Assembly: GCA_031262985.1 (NCBI GenBank)
Contig: JAISGQ010000005.1
Span: 1-64,000, forward strand
Source of the DNA: Oscillospiraceae bacterium
GTDB taxonomy: Bacteria > Bacillota > Clostridia > Oscillospirales > Acutalibacteraceae
Length of the DNA stretch: 64,000 nt
Direction: 5' to 3'
Part shown: in pieces, positions 2,756 to 60,753 of the stretch
Position numbering within the stretch: the first letter of the stretch is position 1
How the letters are laid out: the number at the start of each line of letters is the position of its first letter
Notes under the pieces: model-generated
The model's database searches: none
Told to the model about the DNA's origin: nothing
Seen by the model: only the letters and a program-made list of their open reading frames with translations
Made by a program: the position numbers and the translations under genes

Positions 2756-5700
2756 TTATCCAAATACCATGCTTAATCCTTTTTCAAAACCTGCGACAAG
2801 CGGAGGAAGCAGGACATCGTCTCCTATACCTACGCCGGTAGCGTTATCAGCAATTATAATAGCCATTCCCACTACACAGCCAACGATCAAAACTGCTCCT
2901 AAGGCGCTTTCGGCAACGACTCCCCAGTCAATGTCCCAACCAATCTCTTCTATATATGGGCTGCTTCTGTCGCCATTCGGATTCACGCTCCAGTCCCAAT
3001 CATGATAATGTCCTCCATTTTCATCGTGAGGATGTTTTTTTGGTTTACCATGGTCATCATAATCATAATCCTTTATAGCCCTACCATCTCCATCATACCA
3101 TCTGTCTTGTTTAGGCGTACCATCAGGATAATTTAAAGTTACTTTTGAATTTGCCGGTCCATCTTTTGTAGGAAGGCTGTTTACATACATTATTACAATT
3201 CCCATGTAATCCAAAAAATCATAATAATCTTTTAAGCTGTTTATTATCGGTGAACCATCAGCTCTGAAGGATATGCGACCACTTGGATCTATCATATTTA
3301 CAGGATTGTTTAGGCAGTAGGTATACATATCATTGCCCAAAACCCCTTGACCTGTATGAACCAACCCATCCGCGTTAACAAACCGTCCAATACTCGCGTC
3401 ATAATACCTGCTCTGCAGATAGTACAACCCAGTCTCAGTATCATACCTATACCCGCGATACCTGTAGGGATTCTTCACACCGACAGTATCTGCCAATGAG
3501 CCTGTAGTAGAAATTAGCTTACCCCACGAATCATACAGGTAGCTGACAACCTTCGCGCCATCGCCGTCGATTATTCCAATAATATCTCCCTGCACGTTCT
3601 TCTCGTAGTAGTAGGTGTCTCCGTTCAGCGTCATCGAGAGGATATTCCCCGCTGCATCATAATCATACCACAATATATCCTCGCCTGCAACCTCTTTTAA
3701 AACTTTTGTGCCGTTGAGGAGATAAGTATGTTCCACGCCGTTGACAGTCTTACCAGTTCTAACTCCGTTTGAATCGTAGGTGTAACTGGCCGTAAGCCCA
3801 TTTCCGCTGATTCCGGCAAGCTGTCTGCCTCTCTGCCACGTATAGGTGTAGCCGTCGTAGTTCGTTCGGTTTCCTATCGAATCATAAGTTATCGCCTTAC
3901 CGTCGTAGCTGGTCAGCTTGTCCTTCCAGTTGCTGTCGCCGTAGAGGTAGGTGTAGGAGTTCGTAGCTGTAAGCCCGTCAAGTGCGCCACTGGTCAGAGT
4001 GTACTCCTCGACCAGCAGGATGTTTCCTCCGTTGTCGTAGGTGTAGGCAATCGTCTTTCCAAGCCATGCGTTATCCTCGCGAATCAGCTGATTCAGCTCG
4101 TCATAGTAGTACTGTGCCTTCTGCGTATCACCTTCGCTGATAGTTTCGATGTTGCCCAGTGCGTCGTAGGTGTAGCTCAGTGTCTCGCTCCAGTTTACGC
4201 CGGAGTTGATAATCTGGCTGACCACAGAGGAAGTAGTCTGCGCGGCTTCTCCGTTTCGGTACTGATACTCCGTTGTATATATCGGAGTTTCACCTTCAGC
4301 GGATATGTCGGTCTGAGAAACTCTGTCAAACCCGTCGATGGAGTAGGAGATTTTCTTGCCGTCCGAAAGCTCCATATCCGTGAGCGTGCCGGTGTTAGAG
4401 TATGTGTATACGTTGCCTTTAGTCACACCTTCTGAGGTAGTTTTTGTGCTTGTCAGACGTCCCGTAGTCTTGTCGTAGACGTAGGTCAGCATATCGCCTT
4501 CACTGCTGTAAGCCTTGACGGGAGTGCCGTCCGAGTCGTACTCATACCGCCAGTATACGCCGCTGATAAGGTCGTCGTACCTGCCGATTCTGCCGTCGGA
4601 GGTGTAGCTCCAGCGATAGGCATCAACACCGTCGTAGCTCATGCTTGTGATACGTCCCGCCTCGTCGTAGGTCGGCTCGGAGTAGTCGCCGTTGCCGTAC
4701 TCGGTCATCTCGAGATAGCCGTTGTTCGCGCCGTATGTGTTAGCCGCAAGCACCTGATTTCCAACGCTCGTGGAGGTGACGTTGCCGAACTGGTCGTACT
4801 CGAATGTGTAGGTTACATCCGGAGTGCTGCCGGTTGTGTTATGAGATATTGTATCAAGCCTTCCGTCATCGTAGGTGTAGGTGTTCGTGCTGTTTCCGGT
4901 AGATACTGCCAACAGATTGTCATTATCTGCGTTGTAGGTGTAATCGGTCTCATTTCCGTTCACGTCGGTTACTGTGTTTAGTACTCCCTTTAGGTCATTG
5001 TAATTATATAAAGTTTCGTTTCCGAACATATCTGTGTAAGATGACTTATAGTTTGTGCTGTATTCAATCACTCCCGAGGTCATAGTAAGCCCGTCCGCCG
5101 AAGTGCTTACCCCTGTGGCAAGACCGTCCTCGTCGTAGGAGTAAGTAGCGGTTTTGCCGTTGATGTCCGTCACGCTAAGCAGCTGCTTTGTCGTGCTGTC
5201 GTAGGTGTAGGTCGTGCTTGTTCCGTCGGGATAGGTTATGCTGCTGACCTCAGGTCTCTTGTCCTCGAGGTAGGTGTAGGTGGTGGTTCTGCCCTCCGCG
5301 TCGGTGGCGGTCGTCAGTCGTCCGAAGGTGTCGTACTCCATCTTTCCGCCGAACGCTTCCTTGTAAAGCTGAATGTCGTCGAATATCGCCCTGTTCGCCT
5401 GCCTCTCGTAGAGCAGTGCGATTTTTACCTGACTATAGGCGTAAGGTGCGGACGCCGAGCCCGATAAATACTGCCAGTTAGGGGTTTTTGCCTCAAAATC
5501 AAAGGTGAAATTCTGTGCGGTAACTCCCGATTCCGTCGGCACAAATGTCAGCTTGACCCCGTAGGTTCTGGCTGCGCCGTTGTTGAGGTCGGTCTTCATG
5601 ATGGCGTTTGCCATTGCCCATGCTCCGAACACGAAATTATCGCCTGCTGCGCCGGACACGGTAACGGTCTGTTCTATTGATTTGGCGGCTGTTCGTTGTC

Positions 5701-8700
5701 CCGCCATGTAAAATCCGCTTCCGACCCGTCCTGCAACCACCTTGTCGGAGGAGGCGAGCCCCGTTTTTACCCAGCTTGATGCTGTTGCGCTGTCTACTGC
5801 CTCTCTGAAATGTCCGTTGTCAAGCAGGTTGTACCTGTTTGCGACATCTCCCTCTTCGAGCTGTACGTTGTCGATATACACCTCTCCTACAACGTTGCGA
5901 AGTGTAACTACAGCCTTTATGGTGTCGCTCGCTGAATTTGAGGGTATTGTGAAGGTGTAGCACATTCTCTGCCAATCGAAAGTACCCTTCACCTGCTCGC
6001 CGAGCATTTGCGTCTCGTTTCCGTTCTCATCCTGACAGATTACTGCAAGCGCGAATCCGGAGTCGCCCGGCGTGCTGCCTTGTGCTACGTTTACTGCTTT
6101 TACATCGGCTGACAGCGTGTAGGTTTGCCCTTTTTGCGTCTCCGATACTGTCTGATATGCACTTACGATTTCTGTATTTGCCGAAGAGGTAAGCTTGAGT
6201 GATTTCTGCCCCAGCGAATGTTCGTCAACATTAACTCCCGCGCTTCCTGCAGTGCCTGCATATGAGCTTACCCACGCTGTGCCGGAGCCTAACTCCAGCC
6301 CCGAATTTTGAATGTAATTAGTGACGCTTTTCTGCATCTTCGACTGGTATTTCAGTGCGTGCTTCTTGTTGTCGTTTCCGTTGTCGAAGCCGGAATAGAC
6401 GGCGTTGCCCAAATGGTCTCTGGCGCAGACGGTGTGTCCGGAGTTGTCGAACATCATTGTTTCGCTTCGTCCGAGCCTGTCGGTTATGGTCGTTTCGCCG
6501 GAGTTATATGTCCACGTCAGCGTGTTGCCTTCGCCGCCCTGTGTGCCGTATTCCGTTATTTTGCTCACTCTTCTGGGAGACGCGGCTTTGTATTCTACTC
6601 CGAGGGAGCTTCCGTCGGCGTCGGTTATCTCCGTCATGATTTTTTTGCTTCCATCCGCACTCCACGTTATGGACACTATTTCGCCGTTCGGTCTCGTTAT
6701 ACTGCTGAGATAGCCGTCCGTGTAGCTGTATGAGGTCGCTCTTCCGGATGGATCTGTTACAGATGTGAGATAGTCGTTCGCATCGTATGCCAGTGTCGCA
6801 GTCCGTCCTACTCCGTCTGTAACCGATGTTATTTTGTCGCCGGTATATCCCACTGTCAAGCTCTTGCTTGTCAGCTTATCGGTTATGCCGGTGAGGTAGC
6901 CGGAGGAGTTAAACTTAACCTCCGTATCTCCGCCGTCCGAGAGGGTATACGTTCCGTCCGACTCCACCTTTATGGTTGTGGAGGTGTCAAATTCCTTCTC
7001 ATGCAAAGAGCCGCCCGACGCGCTTGCCTGGTAGTAATGCACCGTTCCGTCGGCATCTGTATGCTTGTAGGTGTAGCCCGACACGTCCGATGTCTGTATT
7101 CTCTGCGACAGATTCAGCCGCATTCCGTATCCGAGCTTGCCCTGTCCGGCAGGATTTTCTGTGCCTCTCTTGCTGTGATTATACACATGACTGATGGATA
7201 TCGGCATATGATTTCCATCCATTGTCAAATCATCATACACGTAGATGAGGTTGCCGTTAAAGTCGCCTACATTCACAGTACCCATAGAGCCGTTGCCCGC
7301 TGTCTGGTATGTAAGCTGACCTTCCAGTCCTTCGTTGTTGAGATAGGTTATGCTCGCGGCAGGTCTCCTGTTGACTGTCGCGCCTGTGTAACGAGACGAA
7401 AAGAATTGAACATATTTATATGAGTTTGCCGTATCGGGCGATATCAGTGCCAGTCCGTAGTTGTTATTATTCAGATACCACGACTTCACTGCGTCCGTTA
7501 TATCCCAGTAGAATCGCACCTGATTTTGCGCCGCCGGAATAGCTACGCTGTCAAGCACTGTACTGCTGTAATTTGAGTTCAAATCCCACCAGTTCATGTT
7601 TATCAGCGGAATATTTGCCGTAATCTGATGCGCATTTATCGTAAATCCACTTGATCCGGAAAACTGTTTTACCGTCAGTCGGGCATACGCGCTGAGTATC
7701 ATATCCGATTCCGTTATGCCGCTCGGAAGTGTAAATTTAAATGCCGATCTCAGGTGACCATACGACGACGACTCGCGTCCTACATACAATGCTCCGTACT
7801 GATACATTGCGTTTGAGCTTGCATTGTTTGAGTTTACGCTTGTGTTGTCAACTGTTGAGTTGTCGTATACCTGTGTTATGGTTGGGTCTATCACAACGGG
7901 ATATGCCCGCTCCGAAGAGAGAAGCCACTCCATATCCGGCGTAATTGTTACTGTATATATGTTTCGGTATTTCTCTAAGCTTAAAGATAACGCACTGCTT
8001 ACCTCATGCTCCGCGTCCTCCATGTAAGGAGCTTCGATTACTCTTACAACCTCGCCGCTCTGCTTGTCCTTAAGGAAGATTTTGTTTTCCTCAAGCGACG
8101 CGGTGATGTTGTTCCCCGCGCTGAGAGTAAAGCTAAAGCTCTGCGCCGCTGTCCTTTTGTTTACGATTATGTTTTCCTTTATGTCGTTTCCGTACAGTGT
8201 GTACTCCAAATCTACATCGTCCAATATGTTTTCATACACTACTGTATCACTTATACTTTTTGCCTCAGTCTTCTTCTTGTTTTCTTCTCCGTTTTCCTTC
8301 TTTACGCTTGCTTCCTTCTTGTTAACGCCGTCAAGACTCCACTTTATTTTGTAATCTCCCTCGCGTATTGTCAGCAATTTGCCTTCCTTCGCCTTCTTCG
8401 CAAAGCTTACCTTTACATTTCCGGTGTCCTTGCTCAGAGACGGCTCGGAGGTCTCGTCTTGTCCTTCCGTGAGGCTGTTATTTATCTCCACCCAATTGCC
8501 GTTTTCGTCCTTCTCATGCACATCTGTATTGTATATCATCGCCGCCATACGACCGTCTTTGAGCTTGAAATGCTTTACATTTGCCTCTCGTTTTTCCTCT
8601 GCTTCGTACAGTATTTCGTCGTCTGTGAACTCACTTTCTTCGTCAGTATCCTCATACGGATTCTCAAAAACATTGTACACGTCAGGCTGAACAATTTCGG

Positions 8701-8812
8701 GCGATGTGTTTTTATTGCTCTTCGCCGCAGATATTGCCTCTATTGGCGTAAGCTGCAAACACATTGCCAAAATCAACGCGATTGATGTTATACGCAATAC
8801 TTTCTTCATCAT
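2756..8812 (-). CDS. Secreted Rhs/YD-repeat polymorphic toxin, full length
   Basis: A 2018-residue protein. A signal peptide (about residues 1-29, ending near IEAISAA) indicates Sec export. Residues about 320-495 resemble a DNRLRE-type beta-sandwich; about 830-1155 hold two jelly-roll, carbohydrate-binding-like modules; YD/Rhs repeats (Y-x-YD-x-x-G-x-L) fill about 500-830 and 1155-1830. The core ends with RYYDASIGRFVNADG and a DPSG motif near residue 1844, the usual boundary between Rhs cage and toxin. The C-terminal toxin region has a HDENGGHYHDWDW histidine-rich motif, then a hydrophobic segment (about residues 1965-1995) that could insert in membrane. TCGGAGG lies nine bases before the ATG. 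Downstream are its DUF2691-like immunity gene and an orphan tip. Such proteins mediate contact-dependent or secreted interbacterial toxicity; the toxin activity here is not identified. Confidence 0.9.
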   Translation of the reverse strand: MMKKVLRITSIALILAMCLQLTPIEAISAAKSNKNTSPEIVQPDVYNVFENPYEDTDEESEFTDDEILYEAEEKREANVKHFKLKDGRMAAMIYNTDVHEKDENGNWVEINNSLTEGQDETSEPSLSKDTGNVKVSFAKKAKEGKLLTIREGDYKIKWSLDGVNKKEASVKKENGEENKKKTEAKSISDTVVYENILDDVDLEYTLYGNDIKENIIVNKRTAAQSFSFTLSAGNNITASLEENKIFLKDKQSGEVVRVIEAPYMEDAEHEVSSALSLSLEKYRNIYTVTITPDMEWLLSSERAYPVVIDPTITQVYDNSTVDNTSVNSNNASSNAMYQYGALYVGRESSSYGHLRSAFKFTLPSGITESDMILSAYARLTVKQFSGSSGFTINAHQITANIPLINMNWWDLNSNYSSTVLDSVAIPAAQNQVRFYWDITDAVKSWYLNNNNYGLALISPDTANSYKYVQFFSSRYTGATVNRRPAASITYLNNEGLEGQLTYQTAGNGSMGTVNVGDFNGNLIYVYDDLTMDGNHMPISISHVYNHSKRGTENPAGQGKLGYGMRLNLSQRIQTSDVSGYTYKHTDADGTVHYYQASASGGSLHEKEFDTSTTIKVESDGTYTLSDGGDTEVKFNSSGYLTGITDKLTSKSLTVGYTGDKITSVTDGVGRTATLAYDANDYLTSVTDPSGRATSYSYTDGYLSSITRPNGEIVSITWSADGSKKIMTEITDADGSSLGVEYKAASPRRVSKITEYGTQGGEGNTLTWTYNSGETTITDRLGRSETMMFDNSGHTVCARDHLGNAVYSGFDNGNDNKKHALKYQSKMQKSVTNYIQNSGLELGSGTAWVSSYAGTAGSAGVNVDEHSLGQKSLKLTSSANTEIVSAYQTVSETQKGQTYTLSADVKAVNVAQGSTPGDSGFALAVICQDENGNETQMLGEQVKGTFDWQRMCYTFTIPSNSASDTIKAVVTLRNVVGEVYIDNVQLEEGDVANRYNLLDNGHFREAVDSATASSWVKTGLASSDKVVAGRVGSGFYMAGQRTAAKSIEQTVTVSGAAGDNFVFGAWAMANAIMKTDLNNGAARTYGVKLTFVPTESGVTAQNFTFDFEAKTPNWQYLSGSASAPYAYSQVKIALLYERQANRAIFDDIQLYKEAFGGKMEYDTFGRLTTATDAEGRTTTYTYLEDKRPEVSSITYPDGTSTTYTYDSTTKQLLSVTDINGKTATYSYDEDGLATGVSTSADGLTMTSGVIEYSTNYKSSYTDMFGNETLYNYNDLKGVLNTVTDVNGNETDYTYNADNDNLLAVSTGNSTNTYTYDDGRLDTISHNTTGSTPDVTYTFEYDQFGNVTSTSVGNQVLAANTYGANNGYLEMTEYGNGDYSEPTYDEAGRITSMSYDGVDAYRWSYTSDGRIGRYDDLISGVYWRYEYDSDGTPVKAYSSEGDMLTYVYDKTTGRLTSTKTTSEGVTKGNVYTYSNTGTLTDMELSDGKKISYSIDGFDRVSQTDISAEGETPIYTTEYQYRNGEAAQTTSSVVSQIINSGVNWSETLSYTYDALGNIETISEGDTQKAQYYYDELNQLIREDNAWLGKTIAYTYDNGGNILLVEEYTLTSGALDGLTATNSYTYLYGDSNWKDKLTSYDGKAITYDSIGNRTNYDGYTYTWQRGRQLAGISGNGLTASYTYDSNGVRTGKTVNGVEHTYLLNGTKVLKEVAGEDILWYDYDAAGNILSMTLNGDTYYYEKNVQGDIIGIIDGDGAKVVSYLYDSWGKLISTTGSLADTVGVKNPYRYRGYRYDTETGLYYLQSRYYDASIGRFVNADGLVHTGQGVLGNDMYTYCLNNPVNMIDPSGRISFRADGSPIINSLKDYYDFLDYMGIVIMYVNSLPTKDGPANSKVTLNYPDGTPKQDRWYDGDGRAIKDYDYDDHGKPKKHPHDENGGHYHDWDWSVNPNGDRSSPYIEEIGWDIDWGVVAESALGAVLIVGCVVGMAIIIADNATGVGIGDDVLLPPLVAGFEKGLSMVFG
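3399..3949 (-). repeat. Rhs core duplication, copy in full-length rhs
   Basis: Partner of 1579-2129: same 551-bp length and near-identical sequence, encoding the last Rhs core repeats immediately before the toxin region. Confidence 0.85.
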
Positions 8813-42271: not shown

Positions 42272-44338
42272 TTAGTGAGTTCTATATGCTTTTTTGCGGC
42301 GCATGATGAGTACGAAAGCCGCCGCCATTCCTGCTCCCGAGGTGAGCATAACAAGGAGCAGATGTGCGAGGTCGCTGTCGTCGCCTGTAGACGGTGCATC
42401 TGTACTGCCGCCATTGGAGGATGTGCCGCTGCTCTTTCCGCCGGAGGGAGTTTGCTTGGCGGGAGAAGTAGGCGCAGTGGGTTCTGTAGGCTCAGTATCT
42501 GATGGAGACACAGGCCCAGTATCGGAGGGTGATACAGGCTCTGTGTCAGAAGGTGAAGCAGGTTTCGTGTCAGAGGGTGAAACAGGCTCTGTGTCAGAAG
42601 GTGAAACAGGTTCTGTGTCGGAAGGAGATACAGGCTCTGTGTCGGAGGGTGAAACAGGTTCTGTGTCGGAAGGAGATACAGGCTCTGTGTCAGAGGGTGA
42701 AACAGGCTTCAACTTATTTGCCTCCGCCGCCGCCTTCTCGTTCGCCTCGCCGATAATCTCATACGGGGAGATTACAGCCGTGCCGTGCGCACCTGCGCTT
42801 ACAGCTTCGATGTTGGTCTGCACAGCTTTGATGGTAGTCTTACTGAACAGCTTGGTTTCATCCGCACTCGTTATCGACTCCGCGCCGGCGACCTTCCTCG
42901 AATACCTGAAATAAACCTCTTCTTCTTTTGGGATTGTAATGGTTACAGGCTCGCCGTCCTCATCCACAATCTGAAAATCTTTATCGAGATAAATTGTACT
43001 CCATGGGCCTTCCTTGGAGGTCGCGTACTGAAGCTCGGAGAGATCGCCCGTGCCAAACTGCGCAAATCCGCCATCGTCCTCATAAACGTCGTTGTCGTTG
43101 AGCCATTCGGAATAGTGCGTCAGATTGATTGAGTACGGCTCTGTGTTTACGACAGTGAGAAAATAGTCAAAGCCGGAGCGGTCTTCACTCGCCGATACGT
43201 CCTTCTCCAGCTCCACAGTCATCATCATGCTGGTGGTAATCTTAACATTGGAGGCAGTTGGAGAGCGTTCCGCGAAAAAGAGCTTCCACTCGTGGGTTTG
43301 GCTTTGAGCGAGAGTTAATTGATCGTCTTCGGCGGCTGTAGACCAATCGGGCACTGCGCGGTAGGTAAGCCCGTCATAGGTGACAGTATCTGAGAGCGAA
43401 TCTAAAACTCCCGCGTTATCCGTGCCTGCATCTGTCCTCGACCACACCTTGCCGTCCTCGTCTATGTATACCTTACCGTTCTCCGAAGCGTGTATTCCTC
43501 CCAAATCCAGTACAAGCATATCGTTGATGTAGAGGAAAACATCGTCGTCGCCCTGAAAGTCGAAGCCGAGCACTTTGCCTGTAAGCTTAAAATATGCGCC
43601 TGTCATGACAGTAAAGCCGAAATTGTGGTCTTCTCCCGTGTCGTTTTCGCTGAACTCATTGCCCTCAACAGGGTAGAAGCTGGCGGTCTTGTCGTAGACG
43701 TACACATCCTCCGCGCCTTGTGTGCCTTTCTGCAACACAAATTCCATGGTATAGTTGTCGTCATACACAAGCTTGCTGACCTGACGCGCTGTTTCGGCGG
43801 AGGTGTAATCCTTGCTGTCGTCCTCAGTCTGGTAGGCGTCGTTAAACCAGCGGTATAGCGCGCCGCCTGTGGTACTGCCGTCTGTGGTAGTTCCCCATAT
43901 CCCGAGGGTATCTCCGCTTGCCGCCTCCGCTGAATTTGCGCCGTCACGGGGGAGCGGCTTGCCGTCCGCACCGAGGATATTGCCGAATATCCCCTGCTTG
44001 AAGCCCGCGTTTACTCCGCTTGTTTGGTCTTGCCATGTGGGCAAAAACTGGCGTTCGGTAGCAGTCGCAATCTTCGCGCCGTTGTTAGCTCCCGATTGAG
44101 TATCCCACCTCTGATCCCAGACGTTGGCGGTCAGATTGGCTGATGTGACCTCCGAGATAAACGAGTCGGGGACACCTTCGGTATGTTCGACCTCCTCACC
44201 CGCGTAGAAGAAGGAGTTCTCCTCTGCGGCACGTGCGGCGAGCGATATATTTGTAAGCACCGAGGCAAGTATGAGAAGGCATAGCGAAATCGCCGCCGCT
44301 TGATAGGATATATTATATCTGTGTGTATCGCTTTTCAT
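42272..44338 (-). CDS. Sortase-type surface protein with fibro-slime domain
   Basis: A 688-residue secreted protein. A signal peptide (hydrophobic ISLCLLILASVLTNISLAARA) precedes a large ectodomain with the fibro-slime/PA14-like pattern: NYTMEFVLQKG, FGFTVMTGAYFKLTGKVLGF and FQGDDDVFLYINDMLVLDLG. Then come nine tandem PVSPSDTE-type octapeptides (about residues 545-616), a G/S-rich spacer, and an anchor: APSTGDD, a hydrophobic helix and RRKKAYRTH, a non-canonical LPxTG-like sorting signal. The ATG at 44338 has GGTGGA nearby and is a weak choice. It probably acts in adhesion or wall-surface assembly; no sortase gene lies in the window. Confidence 0.85.
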   Translation of the reverse strand: MKSDTHRYNISYQAAAISLCLLILASVLTNISLAARAAEENSFFYAGEEVEHTEGVPDSFISEVTSANLTANVWDQRWDTQSGANNGAKIATATERQFLPTWQDQTSGVNAGFKQGIFGNILGADGKPLPRDGANSAEAASGDTLGIWGTTTDGSTTGGALYRWFNDAYQTEDDSKDYTSAETARQVSKLVYDDNYTMEFVLQKGTQGAEDVYVYDKTASFYPVEGNEFSENDTGEDHNFGFTVMTGAYFKLTGKVLGFDFQGDDDVFLYINDMLVLDLGGIHASENGKVYIDEDGKVWSRTDAGTDNAGVLDSLSDTVTYDGLTYRAVPDWSTAAEDDQLTLAQSQTHEWKLFFAERSPTASNVKITTSMMMTVELEKDVSASEDRSGFDYFLTVVNTEPYSINLTHYSEWLNDNDVYEDDGGFAQFGTGDLSELQYATSKEGPWSTIYLDKDFQIVDEDGEPVTITIPKEEEVYFRYSRKVAGAESITSADETKLFSKTTIKAVQTNIEAVSAGAHGTAVISPYEIIGEANEKAAAEANKLKPVSPSDTEPVSPSDTEPVSPSDTEPVSPSDTEPVSPSDTEPVSPSDTKPASPSDTEPVSPSDTGPVSPSDTEPTEPTAPTSPAKQTPSGGKSSGTSSNGGSTDAPSTGDDSDLAHLLLVMLTSGAGMAAAFVLIMRRKKAYRTH
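42491..42706 (-). repeat. 24-bp tandem repeat, nine units
   Basis: Nine in-frame 24-bp units encode PVSPSDTE with K, G and A variants. The pattern makes several long spurious frames on the plus strand. A repeat of this kind can change length by slippage. Confidence 0.9.
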
Positions 44339-44481
44339 AATTCCACCGACTTTCGACATCAATTCACATAATACTCCGTATATTCATTATATAAGAAAAA
44401 ACGACATATTTCAATATATAAAAAATGTAAACTCGTGAAATTTTCATATAATTTATATAGAATATATCAAAAAATACAGCA

Positions 44482-52148: not shown

Positions 52149-53471
52149 ATGAGACGTATCATCAAAAAGCTGATAGCTTTAGCCGCCGTACTTTGCCTGT
52201 GTACAGCTTTCCTTCCCGCCTCCTTTTCGGCGTCCTCCGTTACATACGAGCTTACCTATGAGGTGTTGACCGACGTAACGAGTGCCCGTAAAGGCAAGGA
52301 GATAGTAGTATCGTTCAAGGTCACTAACCACAGTGCCTATGTGGTGAGCAACGCGGAGTTTACTCTCAGATACAACAATACACTTTTGCAGTACAAAACC
52401 GCCGCGAGTACAACGGGAACATACTCCGCCTCAGCCGCGAAGAACGCCGGCAACTCAGTGGGGGAGATAGATGTAACCTTTGCCGCCAACTCATTGCAGA
52501 CCTGCTACAGCGCGAACGGTTCTACCACTCATGATGTTCAGTTTGTTTTCACTCCTATCAAGGCTCAGGCGACAGACACCAAGGTGGAGTTTGAGATTGT
52601 GAAAACAACCGCAAGCTGCAAGAAGGAGTATGTCTCCAACAACACGAAGTACGATTTTGACAGCGCGAAGATTGAGAGCAAGAAGGCGTCTGTAACCATT
52701 CCCGCCGCCTCGTCGGACAGCACTCTCAAAAGTATGGATTTTCTCGTAAATAACGCGGTTGTCCCTATGACGCCCTCGTTTTCACCTACTACAACCGACT
52801 ATACTGTGATTATTCCGTATGATAACCCCGGCATCTCCTACAGGCTGACCCTATCCGACCCTATCGGCGCGAGCTACAGCCAGACACTGCCGAAGTCGCT
52901 GGCAGTCGGCGACAACAAATTCAGCTTTACCGTAACAGCCGAAAACGGAACGCAGAAAACCTACACCTGCACCGTCAGGCGGCTTCCGTTAGGAACTACG
53001 GTAAGCTCATATCTCACAACACTTTCCTCTAACGCGTCCTCCGACACCTCATCCAACAGTTCGTCCTCGGAGGAGAGCAGCAATACATCCTCTCAAGCTT
53101 CCAGCGAAGAACCGGACGAATCCTCCGAAGCCTCATCTGAGGAGGAGAGCAGCCCCGTTCCCTCGCAGGACAGCCCCGCTGAATCGGACAGCGAGGGAGG
53201 AGAGCAATCTACCGCGGGAATTTTCCCTGTGGTTGAGGTCAATCTCGGCGTGATGTTCGGCATAGTCCTCGGAGCTATAGCTCTTTGCGCGGGTGCGTTC
53301 TCGGCTGGTTATATGACCCACAAGAGCGTCCTCAAGGATAAGAGAAAATACTCGAAATACTCGGATGACGACGATTACGAGGAAGTCTACGAGGACAATG
53401 CAGTCTACGATGAGGACGACGATTACGAGGATGATTACGAGGACGACGAGTATGAGGACGAGGAGGAGTAG
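52149..53471 (+). CDS. Membrane-anchored cohesin-like protein 1
   Basis: A 440-residue single-pass membrane protein. A signal peptide (1 to about 28) leads to a cohesin-like beta-sandwich at about 30-185 (GKEIVVSFKVTNHSAYVVSNAEFTLRYNN-type opening strands, then IDVTFAANS and VQFVFTPIKA), a cadherin-like beta-sandwich at about 195-285 (LKSMDFLVNN, FSPTTTDYTVIIPYD, NGTQKTYTCTVRR), an S/E-rich linker, one TM helix (about 363-390, VMFGIVLGAIALCAGAFSAGY), a basic turn, and a cytoplasmic tail of D, E and Y. It could bind the dockerin of the amidase encoded next. Cohesin assignment rests on strand pattern and context. Confidence 0.8.
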   Translation: MRRIIKKLIALAAVLCLCTAFLPASFSASSVTYELTYEVLTDVTSARKGKEIVVSFKVTNHSAYVVSNAEFTLRYNNTLLQYKTAASTTGTYSASAAKNAGNSVGEIDVTFAANSLQTCYSANGSTTHDVQFVFTPIKAQATDTKVEFEIVKTTASCKKEYVSNNTKYDFDSAKIESKKASVTIPAASSDSTLKSMDFLVNNAVVPMTPSFSPTTTDYTVIIPYDNPGISYRLTLSDPIGASYSQTLPKSLAVGDNKFSFTVTAENGTQKTYTCTVRRLPLGTTVSSYLTTLSSNASSDTSSNSSSSEESSNTSSQASSEEPDESSEASSEEESSPVPSQDSPAESDSEGGEQSTAGIFPVVEVNLGVMFGIVLGAIALCAGAFSAGYMTHKSVLKDKRKYSKYSDDDDYEEVYEDNAVYDEDDDYEDDYEDDEYEDEEE

Positions 53472-53550
53472 TCCTCCCCTCGCACTGATAGCAGTTTGAG
53501 CGATATATACCCCCCTACTTTCAACCAAGAAACGGAGTGGATTTTCTTAT

Positions 53551-55185
53551 ATGAACAGAATGAAAGGTAAGCTGAAGGTGTGGCTTGTGGTCACGTTGTG
53601 CCTTGCTTTAGTGGCGTTCTCCCTCCCGATACTAACCGCCACCTTCAACGCGGAGGCGGAAGGTCCCGTGGTCATCCTCCTCGACCCCGGTCACGGAGGT
53701 CCTGATTTCGGCGCGATAAACAAGGCGGCGGGACTTTATGAATCGGAAATAAATCTCGCCATAGCAAAGGCGTGCAAGGAGGAGCTTGAACGCTACGCCA
53801 ATGTGCAGGTGTTTATGACCCACACAGGGCTTTCCCATGAGAGGGAGAAGCTCAGCCTCTCCAGCCGCGTCAACATGGCGTACAGCGTAGGCGCGGACAT
53901 ACTCATCAGTCTGCACACAAACGCGTCCACGTCCAACTCCGCGAACGGTTCGGAGATTTACGTCTCTAAGAGTACATATAAGAGCGAGTACAATCAAAAG
54001 AGCACCGACCTTGCAATCTGCTTCTTGCGCCGGTTTAAGGACATGGGCATGAATATCAGAGGAGTCAAAACCAGACTGAGCAACGGTTCGAGACAGTACG
54101 TACACTCCGACGGAACAAGGGAAGTGGGCGACTACTACGCGGTTATCGGCGACACAATACGCAAGTACGCCATCCCGGGCATACTTGTCGAACACGGCTT
54201 TATTGTGGGAGACGCCAACCACCTCAACACACCGGAAAAGCTCAAGGCGTTCGGTATTGCCGATGCTACCGCAATAGCCGAATACTACGGCTTGCGTCTC
54301 CGCTCCGAGTCGGATACTGAGGAGGAGGTAAGCAGCAGTGATGAGCCGGTCGAGCCTCCTGTTATCGTGACCGATTCCCAGCGGGAAGAGGCGGTTTCCG
54401 TATCCGAGATGATTTTGGCACTCCCCGCCGAGGTGGATTTTTCTGCGGAGGAGAAGATAGTCGCTGCACGTGCGGCATACGAGGGTCTGACCTATGACGA
54501 AAAAAGAGTTATCGAAAGTGATGTGACCGAACAGCTCTACCACACTGTCATACAGCTTGAGTATCTGAGAAACCCCGTCAGACTGAGTGCGGACGATAAC
54601 GAGGACATTTTCATCAATCGCATAAACTCAACTCTCACGGGAATAGACGCGCTTTCGTTTGATTCTAAGGGGACTACGGCGGACACGCTTATCTCCCTTC
54701 TCAGCGTGCATTTTGACGAGCAGTCAATTTCGGAGAACGCCGTTAAGCAGGCAAGACAGCGGCTTACAGACGCAATCCTCGGCGGCATGGAGTTCGAGAA
54801 CACCGAAAGCATCTCACTTGACGAAGACGAAGTTGCCGCACTCGCCGCAGAGATTGAGAATGAAATAAGAAACAGCACATACAAAATAGTGCTGACCGAC
54901 CGCGATTCGAAACCTGTAAAGGGGAGCGGCTTTGCGGCTACCGGCTATGCCGTACAGCTCCTTTGCAACGATGAGGTAATAGACAGCGCGACTATCATCA
55001 TATTCGGAGACCTCAGCGGAGACGGAATAATTGATTCTCTCGACGAGCTGATGATAGACAGACACCTCCAAGGCGTTGAGTCTTTAGATGGAGTTGCCCT
55101 TCAGGCTGCCGACATGAACAATGACGGATACATCAACCTGCTTGACGAGGACATTCTTTCAAGGAAGATTGTCGCGGGAAAATAA
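53551..55185 (+). CDS. N-acetylmuramoyl-L-alanine amidase with C-terminal dockerin
   Basis: A 544-residue secreted protein. A signal peptide (about 1-35) is followed by an Amidase_3 catalytic domain (about 38-250): LLDPGHGGPDFGA with the first zinc His, LYESEINLAIA with the zinc Glu, LISLHTNAS with the second His, and ILVEHGF with the catalytic Glu. It should cleave the bond between MurNAc and the stem peptide. A roughly 230-residue region of mostly helical, acidic character follows. Residues about 486-544 form a dockerin: GDLSGDGIIDSLDELMIDRH and AADMNNDGYINLLDED are the two calcium-binding F-hand repeats. The genes on both sides encode membrane cohesin-like proteins, suggesting docked delivery of the amidase. 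SD is weak. Confidence 0.92.
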   Translation: MNRMKGKLKVWLVVTLCLALVAFSLPILTATFNAEAEGPVVILLDPGHGGPDFGAINKAAGLYESEINLAIAKACKEELERYANVQVFMTHTGLSHEREKLSLSSRVNMAYSVGADILISLHTNASTSNSANGSEIYVSKSTYKSEYNQKSTDLAICFLRRFKDMGMNIRGVKTRLSNGSRQYVHSDGTREVGDYYAVIGDTIRKYAIPGILVEHGFIVGDANHLNTPEKLKAFGIADATAIAEYYGLRLRSESDTEEEVSSSDEPVEPPVIVTDSQREEAVSVSEMILALPAEVDFSAEEKIVAARAAYEGLTYDEKRVIESDVTEQLYHTVIQLEYLRNPVRLSADDNEDIFINRINSTLTGIDALSFDSKGTTADTLISLLSVHFDEQSISENAVKQARQRLTDAILGGMEFENTESISLDEDEVAALAAEIENEIRNSTYKIVLTDRDSKPVKGSGFAATGYAVQLLCNDEVIDSATIIIFGDLSGDGIIDSLDELMIDRHLQGVESLDGVALQAADMNNDGYINLLDEDILSRKIVAGK

Positions 55186-55223
55186 TCTGATACTGATTCT
55201 CGATTGAAAACTGTGCAAAAATC

Positions 55224-55491
55224 AGATGGTGTCTACACAATTTAAAATGCTCGGATTTCGAGCAAATTTTTGTGGTAGATATACTAAATTAACAAGAAAA
55301 CAATCAAGCCTCCACGGGCGAAAATCGCACAAATCAGGGCTTTTAGCCCGTGTTTTCTTGTTGTTTTCTAAGTTAATTAACTATAAGGCGAATTTTTGAA
55401 AGCATAATTGGTTTATGGTAAGAAAATTCAACGAAGTATAGCCAAAAATTTGCCAAAATGCGGGCGTTCTTCACTTGTGTAGACACCATCT
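55224..55491. mobile_element. 268-bp element with 17-bp perfect terminal inverted repeats (MITE-like)
   Basis: AGATGGTGTCTACACAA at 55224-55240 is exactly inverted at 55475-55491. Inner flanks also pair imperfectly (GCAAATTTTTG near both ends). Copy C of the dispersed palindromic element occupies the centre. No coding frame is plausible, so it would be non-autonomous. It fills most of the 390-bp spacer before the second cohesin-like gene. Confidence 0.65.
55280..55385 (-). repeat. Dispersed palindromic element, copy C
   Basis: Read on the minus strand it starts TATAGTTAATTAACTTAG, has CACGGGCTAAAA pairing with TTTTCGCCCGTG, then GGAGGCTTGATTG, and ends TTGTTAATTTAGTATA. It is close to copy D at 62942-63046. 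Confidence 0.85.
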
Positions 55492-55575
55492 AAGGGGAAA
55501 GCTTCTGACAGCGGGGGTTCTCCGCGGATTTTTGCCTGCCGTTTTATGAGAGATTAGAATGAGGGAGATTTATCA

Positions 55576-56988
55576 GTGACCAAAAGTAAAAGCTTAATCA
55601 AACTATCCATGACTGCGTTGCTTATTTTCGCGTTTGTTGCGGCGGCGTTTTTCTCCGATGGAGCAAAGTTTCCGCTCGACACTTCGGCGGCGGACGCGTC
55701 ACCTGTTTTCAGCTTGAGTGTGGATAAATCCACAGCTTCTCAGGGCGACACGGTTACGGTTACGTTTGCCGTTAAAAACAACACGAATATGCCTGTTACC
55801 TCCTTCAGCGGACGCATTACCTACAACAAGAATTATTATCAGTATATGTATTTTGATTACATATCATCGATGAACGGCACTGTTCAGTCGGATAACAGCA
55901 GCGATTATATTACGAACAATTCCGTGAAATTTGTCTTTTCAGATCCTTCAAAAAAGCTTATCCCCAATAATGGAGCAACCATTTCTTTCTTCAAGGTTGT
56001 TTTTCAGGTTTTAGACAATGCCCCTGTGGGCAATCCGTATTTCGGCGGCTTTATTGACGACTGCTACGGCACGAATGAGTCCGATAACGACATTGCCTAC
56101 ACTAACCTAACTCCCGTTGTGCAAAAGAGCATAACCATAAAAACAACAACCACTACAAGAGCGACTACCACTACCACACGAACCACAACCACAAAAACTA
56201 CGACTACAACTACCACAAAAGCGACTACCAGCACAAACGCGATTATCGCGCCGGCAAAAAGCGCGAATTTGCAGTCCTTGCAGATATCGCCAGGCACATT
56301 GCAGCCGGAGTTTAATCCGAACAACGTGGCATACTCTGTCACTGTGCCGTATGAGGTTGAGGAGATGCGGATTTTCGCCGTCTCCGCCGACAACGCCGCG
56401 TTTGTCGTGGGAAACGGCACAAAGCCGCTCGCTGTGGGCGTCAACATATTCACTATTACAGTCACCGCCACAGACGGCACTCAGAAGGAGTACGGCTTGG
56501 TTGTCACAAGAGAAGCTCAGCCGGAAAGCTCCTCATCCGAGGAGGTGTCCTCCGATGAACTTTCATCCGACACCGAGAGCGGGGAGGAGGAGTCCTCCCT
56601 CTACATCATCGACTCCTCCTTAAATGATATGCTGGGAGTGGACGACCGCCTCTCCGGCAATGAGGACGACGGCAACACACTTCAGGGCAGTCCTATTAAA
56701 ATAGTGGGAATTATTTTCGCCGAAATCGCGCTCTTCTTCTTCGGATTCCTCTCGGGCTTCTATATCGACAAGGCGAATAAGCAGAAGCGGGAGGCGGAGG
56801 CACGCGCCCGCCGAAGCAGGAGGAGTCAACCACCTCGCCGCAAGGAGACCTACTACCAAGAACCCGAGGAATACGAGGAGTATGAGGAAGAGGACGAAGA
56901 CGAGTACGAGGAGTACGAAGAGGAGTACGAGGACGACGAGGAAGAAGAATACGAAGACGAGGATGACGACGACTACTATTACAGCTGA
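55576..56988 (+). CDS. Membrane-anchored cohesin-like protein 2
   Basis: A 470-residue paralogue-like protein with the same order as the gene at 52149. A signal peptide (1 to about 36) precedes a cohesin-like domain (about 42-190: LSVDKSTASQGDTVTVTFAV, SFSGRITYNKNYYQYMYFDY, a later VGNPYFGGFIDD), a Thr/Arg/Lys-rich linker (about 190-220), a cadherin-like domain (about 230-312: LQSLQISPGTLQPEFNPNNV, GTQKEYGLVVTR), an S/E/D linker, a TM helix (about 378-398) and a basic then extremely acidic, Tyr-rich cytoplasmic tail of about 60 residues. The GTG start has GAGGGAG eight bases upstream. It likely displays a dockerin-binding module at the cell surface. Confidence 0.82.
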   Translation: MTKSKSLIKLSMTALLIFAFVAAAFFSDGAKFPLDTSAADASPVFSLSVDKSTASQGDTVTVTFAVKNNTNMPVTSFSGRITYNKNYYQYMYFDYISSMNGTVQSDNSSDYITNNSVKFVFSDPSKKLIPNNGATISFFKVVFQVLDNAPVGNPYFGGFIDDCYGTNESDNDIAYTNLTPVVQKSITIKTTTTTRATTTTTRTTTTKTTTTTTTKATTSTNAIIAPAKSANLQSLQISPGTLQPEFNPNNVAYSVTVPYEVEEMRIFAVSADNAAFVVGNGTKPLAVGVNIFTITVTATDGTQKEYGLVVTREAQPESSSSEEVSSDELSSDTESGEEESSLYIIDSSLNDMLGVDDRLSGNEDDGNTLQGSPIKIVGIIFAEIALFFFGFLSGFYIDKANKQKREAEARARRSRRSQPPRRKETYYQEPEEYEEYEEEDEDEYEEYEEEYEDDEEEEYEDEDDDDYYYS

Positions 56989-57053
56989 TTGAGCTGAAAC
57001 TACGGTTACTGTCACGCTGATTGAGCCGAAATTATCCTGACGAATTGACACAA

Positions 57054-57092
57054 AATGCAGACACATGGTGAAAATCATGCACTGTCTGCATT
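57054..57092 (+). terminator. Hairpin after cohesin-like gene 2
   Basis: AATGCAGACA/TGTCTGCATT, 10-bp stem with a long loop, followed by GCTGTTTTA. Confidence 0.5.
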
Positions 57093-57135
57093 GCTGTTTT
57101 ACGGTATTTTAAAATAACTGCAAAGGAATGAAAAT

Positions 57136-60100
57136 ATGACGCGCTTTCTGAAAATCCTGTTACCTACCGCGCTTTTCCTGCTTCTATTTGTAGTGTTTTC
57201 AGGTCACACAGCCTATGCCGCCTCCTCTGTCAGAGTGACCTCCGACAGAGAGCTTGCCGTTGCGCTTAAAGACAAAAACGTGAGCGAGATAAATATAGAG
57301 TACACAGACGCGGTTATTTTTGAGAAAGTTTCCATATCAAGACCGCTTAAAATCACGGGAAATAAAGCGGTTATCTCCAATTCGGGCGACGGATTTATCG
57401 AGGTGCAGACAAAAGGCACGCTCGAACTCCAAAACATCACCATAGCCGGAGTAGAGGACTACCTCATTCGTTCCTCCGGCAAAGTAGTCCTTTCAGGCGG
57501 TATCGTTATCAATAAAAATTTCGGCATACTTATACTCGCCCCGGGGAGTATGGAGAGTGACGGAAGTGCGGTCACGGCGACCTCCTCCGTTACAACCGCA
57601 GTAGGAGTAACCACATCCGGCGGCGAGGTTTCCCTTACGGGCATAAAACTTAGCGGAGGAAAGCCTGCGGGCGACCTTATCTTCATCTATCGCTCGAAGG
57701 GGACGCTTGTCTTTCGCGGAAGCTCTGAAATAATCTCCCCCGATGGAAACGCAATTAGGTCGGCTGTTGGGTATGACGACGACCAATCGGTGAGGATAGC
57801 CGAAAACGCCTCTCTGAGAGTAATCGCGGAGAAGGCGACCAACGACGACGGCTTCGCCGCCGCCGTTTTCATCCCCGAGCTGTCGTTTTCAATGGATGCG
57901 AAATCGACGCTGGAGGTAACAGGCAGCTACTCGGGGCTTTCCGTTTCCTCCCTCACGGCGGCACAGGGATGCACGATAAACGCCATGAACACAATAGAGA
58001 GCAATGTCACAAGATTGCTCCACGAAACGGGAGCGGTGACAATATACCAAAAGTCCTCCTCCATAGGAGCGGACAGCAACCTCATTTTAAGAGGGGCAGA
58101 GGGCATTGTGCTTCGCGGGAGCAGTGACCTTTCTCTGGGCAACAATTGCATTGTCTACAGCGCGCTTTCCTCCTCCGGTGTAGGAGATGCGATACACGCA
58201 AAGGGAGGAAAAGTATCAATAGGTGCTAACTGCCGCTTTGACGGATACGCTCCCGGGAGAATAATTTTCGCCGCTAAGGACATCACTGTGGGAGAAGAAA
58301 CCGCCTTCTCCTCCGAAAATACGAGCTATCCCTCAATGGGCGGGCTGTACTCCGACGCGTCTGTTACCCTCCAAAACAGCAGTATGAAGGTGAACAATCT
58401 CACCGCCGACGGCTACGCGCTGTACGCAGACGGCTCTGTTTACTTAAAAAATTCCTCCAAGCTCGACATACTCGGCGGAGGCGGCATCTGGAGCAAGGGG
58501 GACGCGGTGATAGAAAGCGGCTGTGAGGTAAAGCTGTCGGGTATGACAAAATACGGGATATATGCTAAGGGGAAGGTAGTCGCAGGGGAGCTGAGTACTC
58601 TCTTTATAGACTCCTTCGGCACGTGCATTTATTCGGGAAAGTCGATTGAGTTCCTGCAGGGGAGCAAGGCGACGCTCTCCGTCTCCGCGCTCGAGCCTGC
58701 TGTAGAGCTTGACGCAAAGAGCGGTGAGGAGGGGTATGTCCTGCTGTCGGGAGCAGAGGTCGATTTGTCGGGGACAAACTCCTCGAACGCCCAGCGCGGA
58801 GGTTTGCTGTTTTTAAACGGCAATCTGACGGTGGAGAACCACTCGCATCTCCGCGTCAAGTCGCCCGCCTCCTTCGGTATATACGTAGATGAGGGCGGCA
58901 TTTTCGCAAAATCCGGAGGGTCTGTGCAGTCGAGTGCAGGCTGCGGAATCTATATAGACAGCGGCAACTGCGAGGTGTCGGGCGGCGCGTCGCTCTACTG
59001 CATGGGGTCGCTTGATTCGGGAATCAGAATACAGGACGGCTCGCTTAGCGTCTCCGAGGCTGAAATTGTAGCGCAGGGCGGCAGATTCGGCGCGGAGCTT
59101 TTGGGAAAGGGCGACATTTTGCTCCGCAAGCCAACCTATTACGACATAAGAAGCACGGAGTTTAACAGCGTTTTCATAGATAACGGCAAGCTCTCCGTCA
59201 CCGACACGGCGTTCTCCGCGTGGTATCGCAAGGACGGAGTGAGAAACGAAAACACATGGTGGCAGGACGGGGCAAACGGCATAGACTTCTTTGAAATCCA
59301 CACAAAGCTGACCCCCGACCGCTTGATGTACGCAGATTATACCTCCGCAGCCTCGGCGGTGTCGCAGAATTACGCGGGCGGCTCTCCCAAAGCATTTGAC
59401 GGCATGGCGGAGAATATATCGGCGTGGAATCCCTATGACTGCACAAGAATCGCGCCATTCATGACGCGTCCTGTCGCACTCTCGAACCTCTACTACCTCC
59501 CCGCCGGAAAATCCTTCTCGTGGATGCTTAGCGGCAGGAGCGTGCAGGGGGGAGGAGAAAAATTCGCCGTCTCCTCCATACTCGGCGAGGGGAATATCTA
59601 TCTGAGTGAGGACGGCAAATTTACCTACTCCGCGCCGCTTGCCACAAGAGGAGTGCAGACCTTTGAGTTTACCGTAACAGGCTCAGACGGAGCAGTTTCG
59701 CTGCCTGCGTCGCTTAAAATAAACGTAACAAAATCAAAGCCCCCCGCCGCCTACACCTCCACCTTTGAGGTGCGAACCAATGCGGAGCTTCTGTCGGCTG
59801 TCACCGTCACCGATTTTGACGGGATGATTAACAATGTCGAGGTAGTGGACAAGCCGACGTTTGGAGAGCTTATTATGTCCTCCGACGGGCAGTTTAAATA
59901 TGTGCCGGAGACAGGCTTTGCGGGGACGGATTATTTCACCTACGTTGCAGTTGACAACGACGGCGACAAAAGCTCGCTGGCAACCGCCACCATCCTCGTC
60001 GGGCAGACGAGGTACTGCGCCGCCTTCAACGCAACTCACTTAGCTGCGAGGGATGAGGTAATCACAGCCGGCTTCGACTACCGAGCGACTGCTCTGCCGG

Positions 60101-60753
60101 CGAACAATCAGGAGGCGACGCCCGCCGAAATAGCCGATGTAGTTATAACGCAAATGTCGCTCTACGGGACGTTTGAGGCGGATAACGGCGGCTACTCCTA
60201 CACTCCCTATGAGGATTTCGCGGGAACGGACACCATTAAATTTAAGCTAAAATTTTCTGACAAGACCGAGAGCGAGGAGGCGATAATAAGCATTATCACC
60301 ATCCCCAGCCAGAAGCCTTCGGTTTTCGACTACTCGCTTGAGTGCATAAAGAACCGCACTCTTTCAGAAAAACTGACCGCCGACGATATGGACGGCACTG
60401 TGGCGAAATATGAGATTACAGCTCTGCCGTCAAATGGAACTATCGAGCTTGACACGACTACGGGCGAGTTTGTCTATGAGCCGAGCCGCGGCTACACAGG
60501 CGCGGACAGCTTCTCGTTCGCCGTGTACGACAACGAGGGGCTGCGGAGCAACGAGGCGAGCGTCTCGGTGGAGGTGAAAACCCTCACTCAATCCCTTCGC
60601 GATTCGGGGAAGTACTTCGCCGCGGTGGTGTTTGTGGTTTTAGGAGTGTTAGCAGTTATAGTATTCCTCGCGCTTTTGGCCGTGCATATTGTGAGGAAGC
60701 GAAAGGACGAGGAGCGGGAGTACAGAAGACAGATGAAAAAGAAACTTCACTGA
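57136..60753 (+). CDS. Membrane-anchored beta-helix surface protein with cadherin-like domains
   Basis: A 1205-residue protein. A signal peptide (1 to about 29, ending TAYAAS) precedes a right-handed beta-helix-like region (about 30-720) made of short repeats such as GYALYADGSVYLKNSSKLDI, GGIWSKGDAVIESG and GIYAKGKVV. Residues about 790-1150 hold three Ig/cadherin-like (VCBS- or Big_9-like) units, with QFKYVPETGFAGTDYFTYVA and EFVYEPSRGYTGADSFSFAV as clear copies. A TM helix near 1160-1185 and a basic tail (RKRKDEEREYRRQMKKKLH) end it. Beta-helix proteins often bind or process polysaccharide, but no catalytic motif is seen. AAAGGA lies eight bases upstream. Its position suggests a part in the same surface system as the cohesin and dockerin genes. 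Confidence 0.82.
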   Translation: MTRFLKILLPTALFLLLFVVFSGHTAYAASSVRVTSDRELAVALKDKNVSEINIEYTDAVIFEKVSISRPLKITGNKAVISNSGDGFIEVQTKGTLELQNITIAGVEDYLIRSSGKVVLSGGIVINKNFGILILAPGSMESDGSAVTATSSVTTAVGVTTSGGEVSLTGIKLSGGKPAGDLIFIYRSKGTLVFRGSSEIISPDGNAIRSAVGYDDDQSVRIAENASLRVIAEKATNDDGFAAAVFIPELSFSMDAKSTLEVTGSYSGLSVSSLTAAQGCTINAMNTIESNVTRLLHETGAVTIYQKSSSIGADSNLILRGAEGIVLRGSSDLSLGNNCIVYSALSSSGVGDAIHAKGGKVSIGANCRFDGYAPGRIIFAAKDITVGEETAFSSENTSYPSMGGLYSDASVTLQNSSMKVNNLTADGYALYADGSVYLKNSSKLDILGGGGIWSKGDAVIESGCEVKLSGMTKYGIYAKGKVVAGELSTLFIDSFGTCIYSGKSIEFLQGSKATLSVSALEPAVELDAKSGEEGYVLLSGAEVDLSGTNSSNAQRGGLLFLNGNLTVENHSHLRVKSPASFGIYVDEGGIFAKSGGSVQSSAGCGIYIDSGNCEVSGGASLYCMGSLDSGIRIQDGSLSVSEAEIVAQGGRFGAELLGKGDILLRKPTYYDIRSTEFNSVFIDNGKLSVTDTAFSAWYRKDGVRNENTWWQDGANGIDFFEIHTKLTPDRLMYADYTSAASAVSQNYAGGSPKAFDGMAENISAWNPYDCTRIAPFMTRPVALSNLYYLPAGKSFSWMLSGRSVQGGGEKFAVSSILGEGNIYLSEDGKFTYSAPLATRGVQTFEFTVTGSDGAVSLPASLKINVTKSKPPAAYTSTFEVRTNAELLSAVTVTDFDGMINNVEVVDKPTFGELIMSSDGQFKYVPETGFAGTDYFTYVAVDNDGDKSSLATATILVGQTRYCAAFNATHLAARDEVITAGFDYRATALPANNQEATPAEIADVVITQMSLYGTFEADNGGYSYTPYEDFAGTDTIKFKLKFSDKTESEEAIISIITIPSQKPSVFDYSLECIKNRTLSEKLTADDMDGTVAKYEITALPSNGTIELDTTTGEFVYEPSRGYTGADSFSFAVYDNEGLRSNEASVSVEVKTLTQSLRDSGKYFAAVVFVVLGVLAVIVFLALLAVHIVRKRKDEEREYRRQMKKKLH

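Follow-up and report, generated by a model that had tools for sequence, protein, structure and literature searches.

We propose that three adjacent genes of an Oscillospiraceae bacterium, encoding P0001, P0002 and P0003, form a non-cellulosomal, membrane-anchored docking system for the cell's own peptidoglycan hydrolase, a model that we hold to be reasonably probable. The genes belong to a window of 64,000 nucleotides, the whole stretch of DNA that was analysed (contig JAISGQ010000005.1, positions 1 to 64,000, assembly GCA_031262985.1). At 52149-60753, on the plus strand, the list of open reading frames (ORFs) and a domain scan place in order a cohesin protein with a transmembrane (TM) segment, an Amidase_3-dockerin protein, a second cohesin-TM protein and a beta-helix/Big_9-TM protein, P0004; all four consecutive genes of the original prediction were recovered where it had placed them. 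The host genome, of gut type, appears to employ the cohesin-dockerin plug of the cellulosome for keeping a wall-cutting enzyme of its own within a membrane complex. According to this model, the dockerin of the secreted-side amidase P0002 would plug, in a calcium-dependent manner, into the cohesin of P0001, of P0003 or of both. Docking would give the amidase a second attachment, to proteins whose cytoplasmic tails are disordered, and the wall hydrolase would act within a membrane complex whose anchors reach the cytoplasm; docking would probably determine the place or the timing of the amidase's cuts in the cell's own peptidoglycan. The physical binding, its calcium dependence, the regulation of activity and any subcellular site, such as the septum or forespore first suggested, are inferred. 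The three core genes carry the following features.

52149..53471, plus strand: P0001, upstream cohesin-like membrane protein, 440 amino acids (ORF, domain scan, orthologs L096, L162, L163 and L169)
52269..52613, plus strand: divergent cohesin of P0001 (PF00963, PDB matches of the ortholog profile, HHalign)
52764..52982, plus strand: Cadherin-like beta-sandwich of P0001, PF12733 (residues 206-278, 33.9 bits)
53244..53300, plus strand: TM helix of P0001, residues 366-384 (hydropathy 2.3), followed by the acidic tail to 53468
53551..55185, plus strand: P0002, Amidase_3 peptidoglycan amidase with C-terminal dockerin, 544 amino acids (ORF, domain scan, orthologs)
53578..53634, plus strand: N-terminal hydrophobic segment of P0002, residues 10-28 (hydropathy 2.58)
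53674..54279, plus strand: Amidase_3 catalytic domain of P0002 (112.3 bits)
54568..55005, plus strand: pre-dockerin module of P0002 (likeness by eye to L047 and L108-L126)
55006..55170, plus strand: type I dockerin of P0002 (PF00404, 41.1 bits in the domain scan, 45.1 bits in the genome scan)
55576..56988, plus strand: P0003, downstream cohesin membrane protein, 470 amino acids, GTG start (ORF, domain scan, orthologs)
55711..56082, plus strand: cohesin of P0003 (PF00963, family cohesin profile, HHalign)
56272..56514, plus strand: Cadherin-like beta-sandwich of P0003, PF12733 (residues 233-313, 40.2 bits)
56695..56751, plus strand: TM helix of P0003, residues 374-392 (hydropathy 2.3), followed by the acidic tail to 56985

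Domains of the three core proteins

The dockerin of P0002 is unambiguous, as first proposed. Along with its profile match it displays the two F-hand calcium loops of Dockerin_1, both complete (DLSGDGIIDSLD and DMNNDGYINLLD, at residues 487 and 521), and these loops are kept across amidase orthologs only ~45% identical. By eye, the segment preceding it looks like its counterpart in other lone-dockerin proteins. The catalytic domain contains the four zinc-binding/catalytic residues of Amidase_3 enzymes, H48, E64, H122 and E214, all invariant among the orthologs. An identity of P0002 with CwlD was considered and rejected, the best NCBIfam match reaching 65.9 bits against an equivalog cut-off of 221.6; a separate CwlD-like amidase gene (195.5 bits) is found in the host genome.

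The cohesins are more divergent. Relative to the curated PF00963 cut-off of 24.1 bits, the P0003 domain scores above (30.9 bits in hmmscan, 36.4 bits in the genome scan) and matches the family cohesin profile at 3.5e-10; that of P0001 is borderline, below the cut-off in hmmscan (22.2 bits) and above it in the genome scan (25.5 bits). Profile-profile comparison was made with A7, a set of 15 strong cohesins from the same bacterial family that itself matches solved cohesins at E = 4e-24. HHalign probabilities were 96.1% for the cohesin regions of the P0003 orthologs (A4) and 94.9% for those of the P0001 orthologs (A5), the control, the PF12733 Cadherin-like domain of P0001 and P0003, giving 1.4% against the cohesin profile. 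The full-length P0001 ortholog profile had cohesins as all of its top five PDB matches (best E = 6e-4); the P0003 cohesin-region profile retrieved a solved cohesin at E 0.77 only, amid unrelated matches. Taken at the level of sequence profiles, these results support the assignment of divergent cohesins to both proteins, P0001 being the less certain, and uphold to the same unequal degree the cohesin call first made for the two scaffolds.

Both scaffolds share one architecture. P0001 runs from a signal peptide through the cohesin, the Cadherin-like domain and an S/E-rich linker to a single TM and an acidic tail; in P0003, signal peptide, cohesin, T-rich linker, Cadherin-like domain and a further linker precede the TM and acidic tail. 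Domains and TM prediction thus bear out their earlier description as single-pass proteins with cytoplasmic tails. These tails are disordered, with an Asp/Glu content of 47% in P0001 and 45% in P0003. Since the counterparts in a related genus, g45, have tails rich in Met, Pro, Gly and Gln that are not acidic, tail charge does not represent a conserved signal.

The N-terminus of the amidase bears on what docking could achieve. No signal-peptidase AxA cleavage site was found in the P0002 orthologs, and the dockerin-less ones, which have longer cytoplasmic N-termini ahead of the hydrophobic segment, are clearly anchored by this end. The hydrophobic N-terminus of P0002 is probably an uncleaved membrane anchor as well, the amidase being likely already held at the membrane. 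A role restricted to tethering is thus less likely; docking is more likely to build or control a membrane complex containing the hydrolase than simply to attach it. The original proposal, that the locus positions an autolysin on the membrane, stands insofar as a dockerin-bearing amidase has likely cohesin partners, but it is weakened as an account of membrane attachment as such.

Conservation of the core and candidate partners

Among 398 genomes from the bacterial family of the host, amidase orthologs were detected in two other genera, g45 and g36. In three g45 genomes (G044, G163 and G303; loci L096, L162 and L163) the amidase, 43-46% identical to P0002, carries a dockerin and has a cohesin-TM gene on each side; in a fourth, G242, the locus ends within the amidase, and the upstream cohesin gene (L169) is present. 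In blastp comparisons, P0001 is the best match of the upstream proteins of G044 and G242, and P0003 that of the downstream proteins of G044, G163 and G303. In the six genomes of g36 the condition is the opposite: there is no dockerin match at any of the six amidase loci, no cohesin gene flanks the amidase in the five loci with a recovered amidase ORF, and the protein stops after the pre-dockerin module. Dockerin and flanking cohesins are therefore co-present in the host and g45 and co-absent in g36. Given that the pairing is kept in two genera, with both parts jointly absent in a third, the flanking proteins are likely partners of the dockerin. Three of the six cohesin and dockerin domains of the host genome (four cohesins and two dockerins in ~2 Mb) fall in adjacent genes; this clustering and the conservation of the core in g45 set the arrangement well apart from chance.

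P0004 does not follow this pattern. At the corresponding place in L096, L162 and L163 it is missing and a ~212-residue protein occurs instead; thus, of the four-gene set expected to recur by synteny, the cohesin-amidase-cohesin core is kept in g45 but the beta-helix gene is not. In G348 (g36) the gene after the amidase is ComEA-like; the window has a homolog of it ~6 kb past its own amidase gene. This points to insertion of the cohesin and beta-helix genes between the two, or to their loss in G348. In an amidase-alignment scan of genome contigs, the matches listed were unrelated amidases, with no dockerin or cohesin among 80 loci as judged by preliminary profiles, and a scan of viral contigs gave no match.

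Two more cohesins are encoded in the host assembly (1.96 Mb in 51 contigs, 79% complete). One belongs to a second amidase on contig 8 (L174:7215-8930), which combines Amidase_3, dockerin and cohesin in one chain; the other to a cohesin-TM protein with a D-rich tail on contig 30 (L175:6382-7644), whose gene adjoins glmM. Both host dockerins thus stand on Amidase_3 proteins, in place of the several polysaccharide-degrading passengers of a cellulosome, an LPxTG-like motif is absent from all four cohesin proteins, and no multi-cohesin scaffoldin occurs in this 79%-complete assembly. For these reasons we do not regard the host system as a cellulosome; likewise, a sortase-anchored scaffoldin, raised originally as the possible true partner, was not found in the assembly. 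The SpoIVA gene is also present, and together with the separate CwlD-like amidase it indicates that the host is probably a spore-forming member of the Clostridia. Sporulation is thus possible for this organism, yet nothing links the 52149-60753 locus to it.

We consider it unlikely that the P0002 dockerin pairs mainly with the contig 8 or the contig 30 cohesin, in an amidase-amidase chain for instance, leaving the flanking cohesins to other ligands. The contig 8 chain does bear both modules, as in R. bromii Amy4, a precedent for cohesin and dockerin in one enzyme (PMC5814915), and it has relatives in g45 (L171 and L172), in which amidase and dockerin are kept and the cohesin part has no significant match to the cohesin profile. 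The glmM-linked cohesin-TM protein also occurs in the host and its relatives; g36, however, keeps it without any dockerin on the amidase, so its retention is independent, and both the adjacency and the joint absence described above speak for the flanking cohesins as partners. The persistence of the glmM type in g36 genomes without a recognised dockerin implies that at least one cohesin-like protein of the lineage works without such a partner, and cohesin-like domains here may have ligands other than dockerins. Loci L284, L285, L288, L289 and L296 carry this cohesin-TM type, beside glmM in several g36 genomes.

Another alternative is outward display, with the enzyme digesting the peptidoglycan of other bacteria or of dead cells for nutrition or competition. 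Cohesin-dockerin systems mostly do display exo-enzymes (cellulosome, amylosome, mucinolysome). Here, however, the anchors are embedded in the membrane rather than attached to the wall or the S-layer, and the catalytic domain of P0002 begins ~12 residues past its hydrophobic segment, which would place the amidase at the inner face of the wall. With one hydrolase per locus and no further digestive passengers in the genome scan, we judge this explanation very improbable, and retain docking of the cell's own hydrolase as the preferred one.

Other hydrolases and lone dockerins

The association of membrane cohesins with wall hydrolases is not restricted to amidases. A dockerin was present in 122 of 150 sampled family genomes, and from the 64 of these with four or fewer dockerins each, taken further, 80 dockerin loci were classified by cohesin and dockerin profiles. 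A SagB-like glucosaminidase with a dockerin was found in 13 genomes, each of a different genus; the three members scanned match the NCBIfam SagB model NF052642. In 11 of the 13, a same-strand cohesin-TM gene adjoins the glucosaminidase gene, for ~0.04 adjacent cases expected under random gene order, an approximation that ignores operon clustering. The two exceptions are a gene at a contig end and one whose neighbour has the same kind of Cadherin-like repeats and no detectable cohesin. The adjoining anchors combine PF12733 with a C-terminal TM, as P0001 and P0003 do, and cohesin-TM genes thus adjoin the dockerin genes of two unrelated hydrolases, amidase and glucosaminidase.

This recurrence also bears on a less specific explanation, namely that the flanking domains are cohesin-fold stalks without dockerin binding, the genes being co-located simply as envelope genes and the dockerin being a relic or serving another ligand. 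The low P0001 score fits a non-binding stalk, stalk domains of beta-sandwich type are common, and the contig 30-type cohesin persists independently of the dockerin in g36. The profile-profile matches of the flanking domains are nevertheless cohesin-specific, the calcium loops of the dockerin are conserved at an amidase identity of only ~45%, and the same juxtaposition exists at two unrelated hydrolases; we thus find the stalk explanation improbable.

Several observations weigh against the docking model. The cohesin score of P0001 is weak (22-25 bits), a two-sequence model of both cohesin regions yielded eight strands, compared with nine in the cohesin jelly-roll, at a predicted local distance difference test (pLDDT) of 38.9, which is untrustworthy, and the predicted structure of the dockerin alone has low confidence (pLDDT 39). 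The amidase synteny rests on two genera, and the host assembly is only 79% complete. The contig 8 amidase is another possible cohesin partner, and every one of the six g36 genomes has the glmM-linked cohesin-TM type, although a dockerin over the cut-off is missing from four.

On a broader scale, a minimal pair of one membrane cohesin and one dockerin may represent a widespread means by which the family docks its own wall hydrolases, with amidase and glucosaminidase interchangeable, and so provide a role for many lone dockerins and cohesins of gut genomes without a cellulosome; we advance this generalization tentatively, as possible rather than probable. In 15 further genomes the lone dockerin sits on a beta-propeller-like protein, with repeats read by eye and no Pfam match (L081, L098, L108, L112, L114, L116, L117, L123, L124, L126 and others), an N-terminal hydrophobic segment and the shared pre-dockerin module. 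These dockerins, from 15 genera, were considered as members of the same linked system and rejected, none having an adjacent cohesin; in the five such genomes that were read, the cohesin found is a C-terminal TM protein encoded elsewhere. The alternating layout also has a small polysaccharide-degrading variant at L083 (G138:C2), where two cohesin genes and two GH16-dockerin genes are interleaved.

Two further features lie within the locus.

57136..60753, plus strand: P0004, membrane-anchored beta-helix/Big_9 repeat protein outside the conserved core, with a Pectate_lyase_5-like region, Big_9/tandem-95 repeats and a C-terminal TM
55224..55491, no strand: element of 268 bp between P0002 and P0003, like a miniature inverted-repeat transposable element, with 17-bp perfect inverted repeat ends (AGATGGTGTCTACACAA)

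Two further sites in the genome, C19 and C37, carry near-identical termini of the 268-bp element. Elsewhere in the window, the minus strand encodes a 2018-residue RHS/YD-repeat protein (2756-8812), followed by a 415-residue ORF (897-2144, minus) with the same C-terminal RHS core but another tip, an arrangement resembling an RHS orphan cassette. A surface protein with a PSDTEPVS-type tandem repeat close to its C-terminus and a C-terminal TM is encoded at 42272-44362, also on the minus strand.

Comparison with known systems

To our knowledge, cohesin-dockerin pairs are known almost entirely from enzymes that digest food or host glycans. The present locus shares the type I modules of the cellulosome, amylosome and mucinolysome, and their division of labour, the enzyme bearing the dockerin and a non-catalytic surface protein the cohesin. 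It differs in having one cohesin per anchor and no multi-cohesin scaffoldin, attachment by TM rather than by sortase or S-layer homology (SLH) modules, and a peptidoglycan hydrolase as passenger in place of polysaccharide-degrading ones.

Non-cellulosomal cohesin-dockerin pairs are already known, as are single-cohesin proteins with a C-terminal TM, surveyed in Lachnoclostridium sp. MSJ-17, H. luporum and C. cibarium, with unclear partners (PMC11557425). The latter resemble P0001 and P0003 as monovalent cohesins on single-pass membrane proteins; those organisms, however, have cellulosome-like gene sets, whereas here a linked hydrolase is the likely partner. The Clostridium perfringens enzyme complexes, as far as they are described where they are named (PMC12997984), likewise use single cohesins and dockerins pairwise outside a cellulosome, but for secreted enzymes acting on host glycans, whereas here the anchors are in the membrane and the proposed passengers are hydrolases of the cell's own wall. 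In the open-access literature, subscription journals being mostly uncovered, no account was found of a membrane cohesin that docks a peptidoglycan hydrolase. A survey of the human gut counted dockerin proteins in 26,894 genomes and cohesin proteins in 6,562, but both together in only 4,333 (PMC12997984). If our model holds, part of the orphan cohesin and dockerin set of gut genomes would gain a role in the cell wall, and wall growth, division or sporulation would have recruited an interaction that ranks among the tightest known between proteins.

From the side of the hydrolases, the spore-cortex amidase CwlD is similar in its Amidase_3 domain and N-terminal hydrophobic segment, although P0002 falls far under the CwlD cut-off. 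The closest functional analogues are found in Staphylococcus aureus, where LytH is activated by ActH and SagB is complexed with SpdC (PMC9733580), that is, an amidase or a glucosaminidase with a dedicated membrane partner that holds and controls it. ActH and SpdC, the latter multi-spanning, are unrelated to the partners proposed here, and those systems have neither cohesin nor dockerin. The conserved flanking TM proteins P0001 and P0003 would nonetheless be the dedicated partners of P0002 in the same sense, with cohesin and dockerin as the presumed means of pairing.

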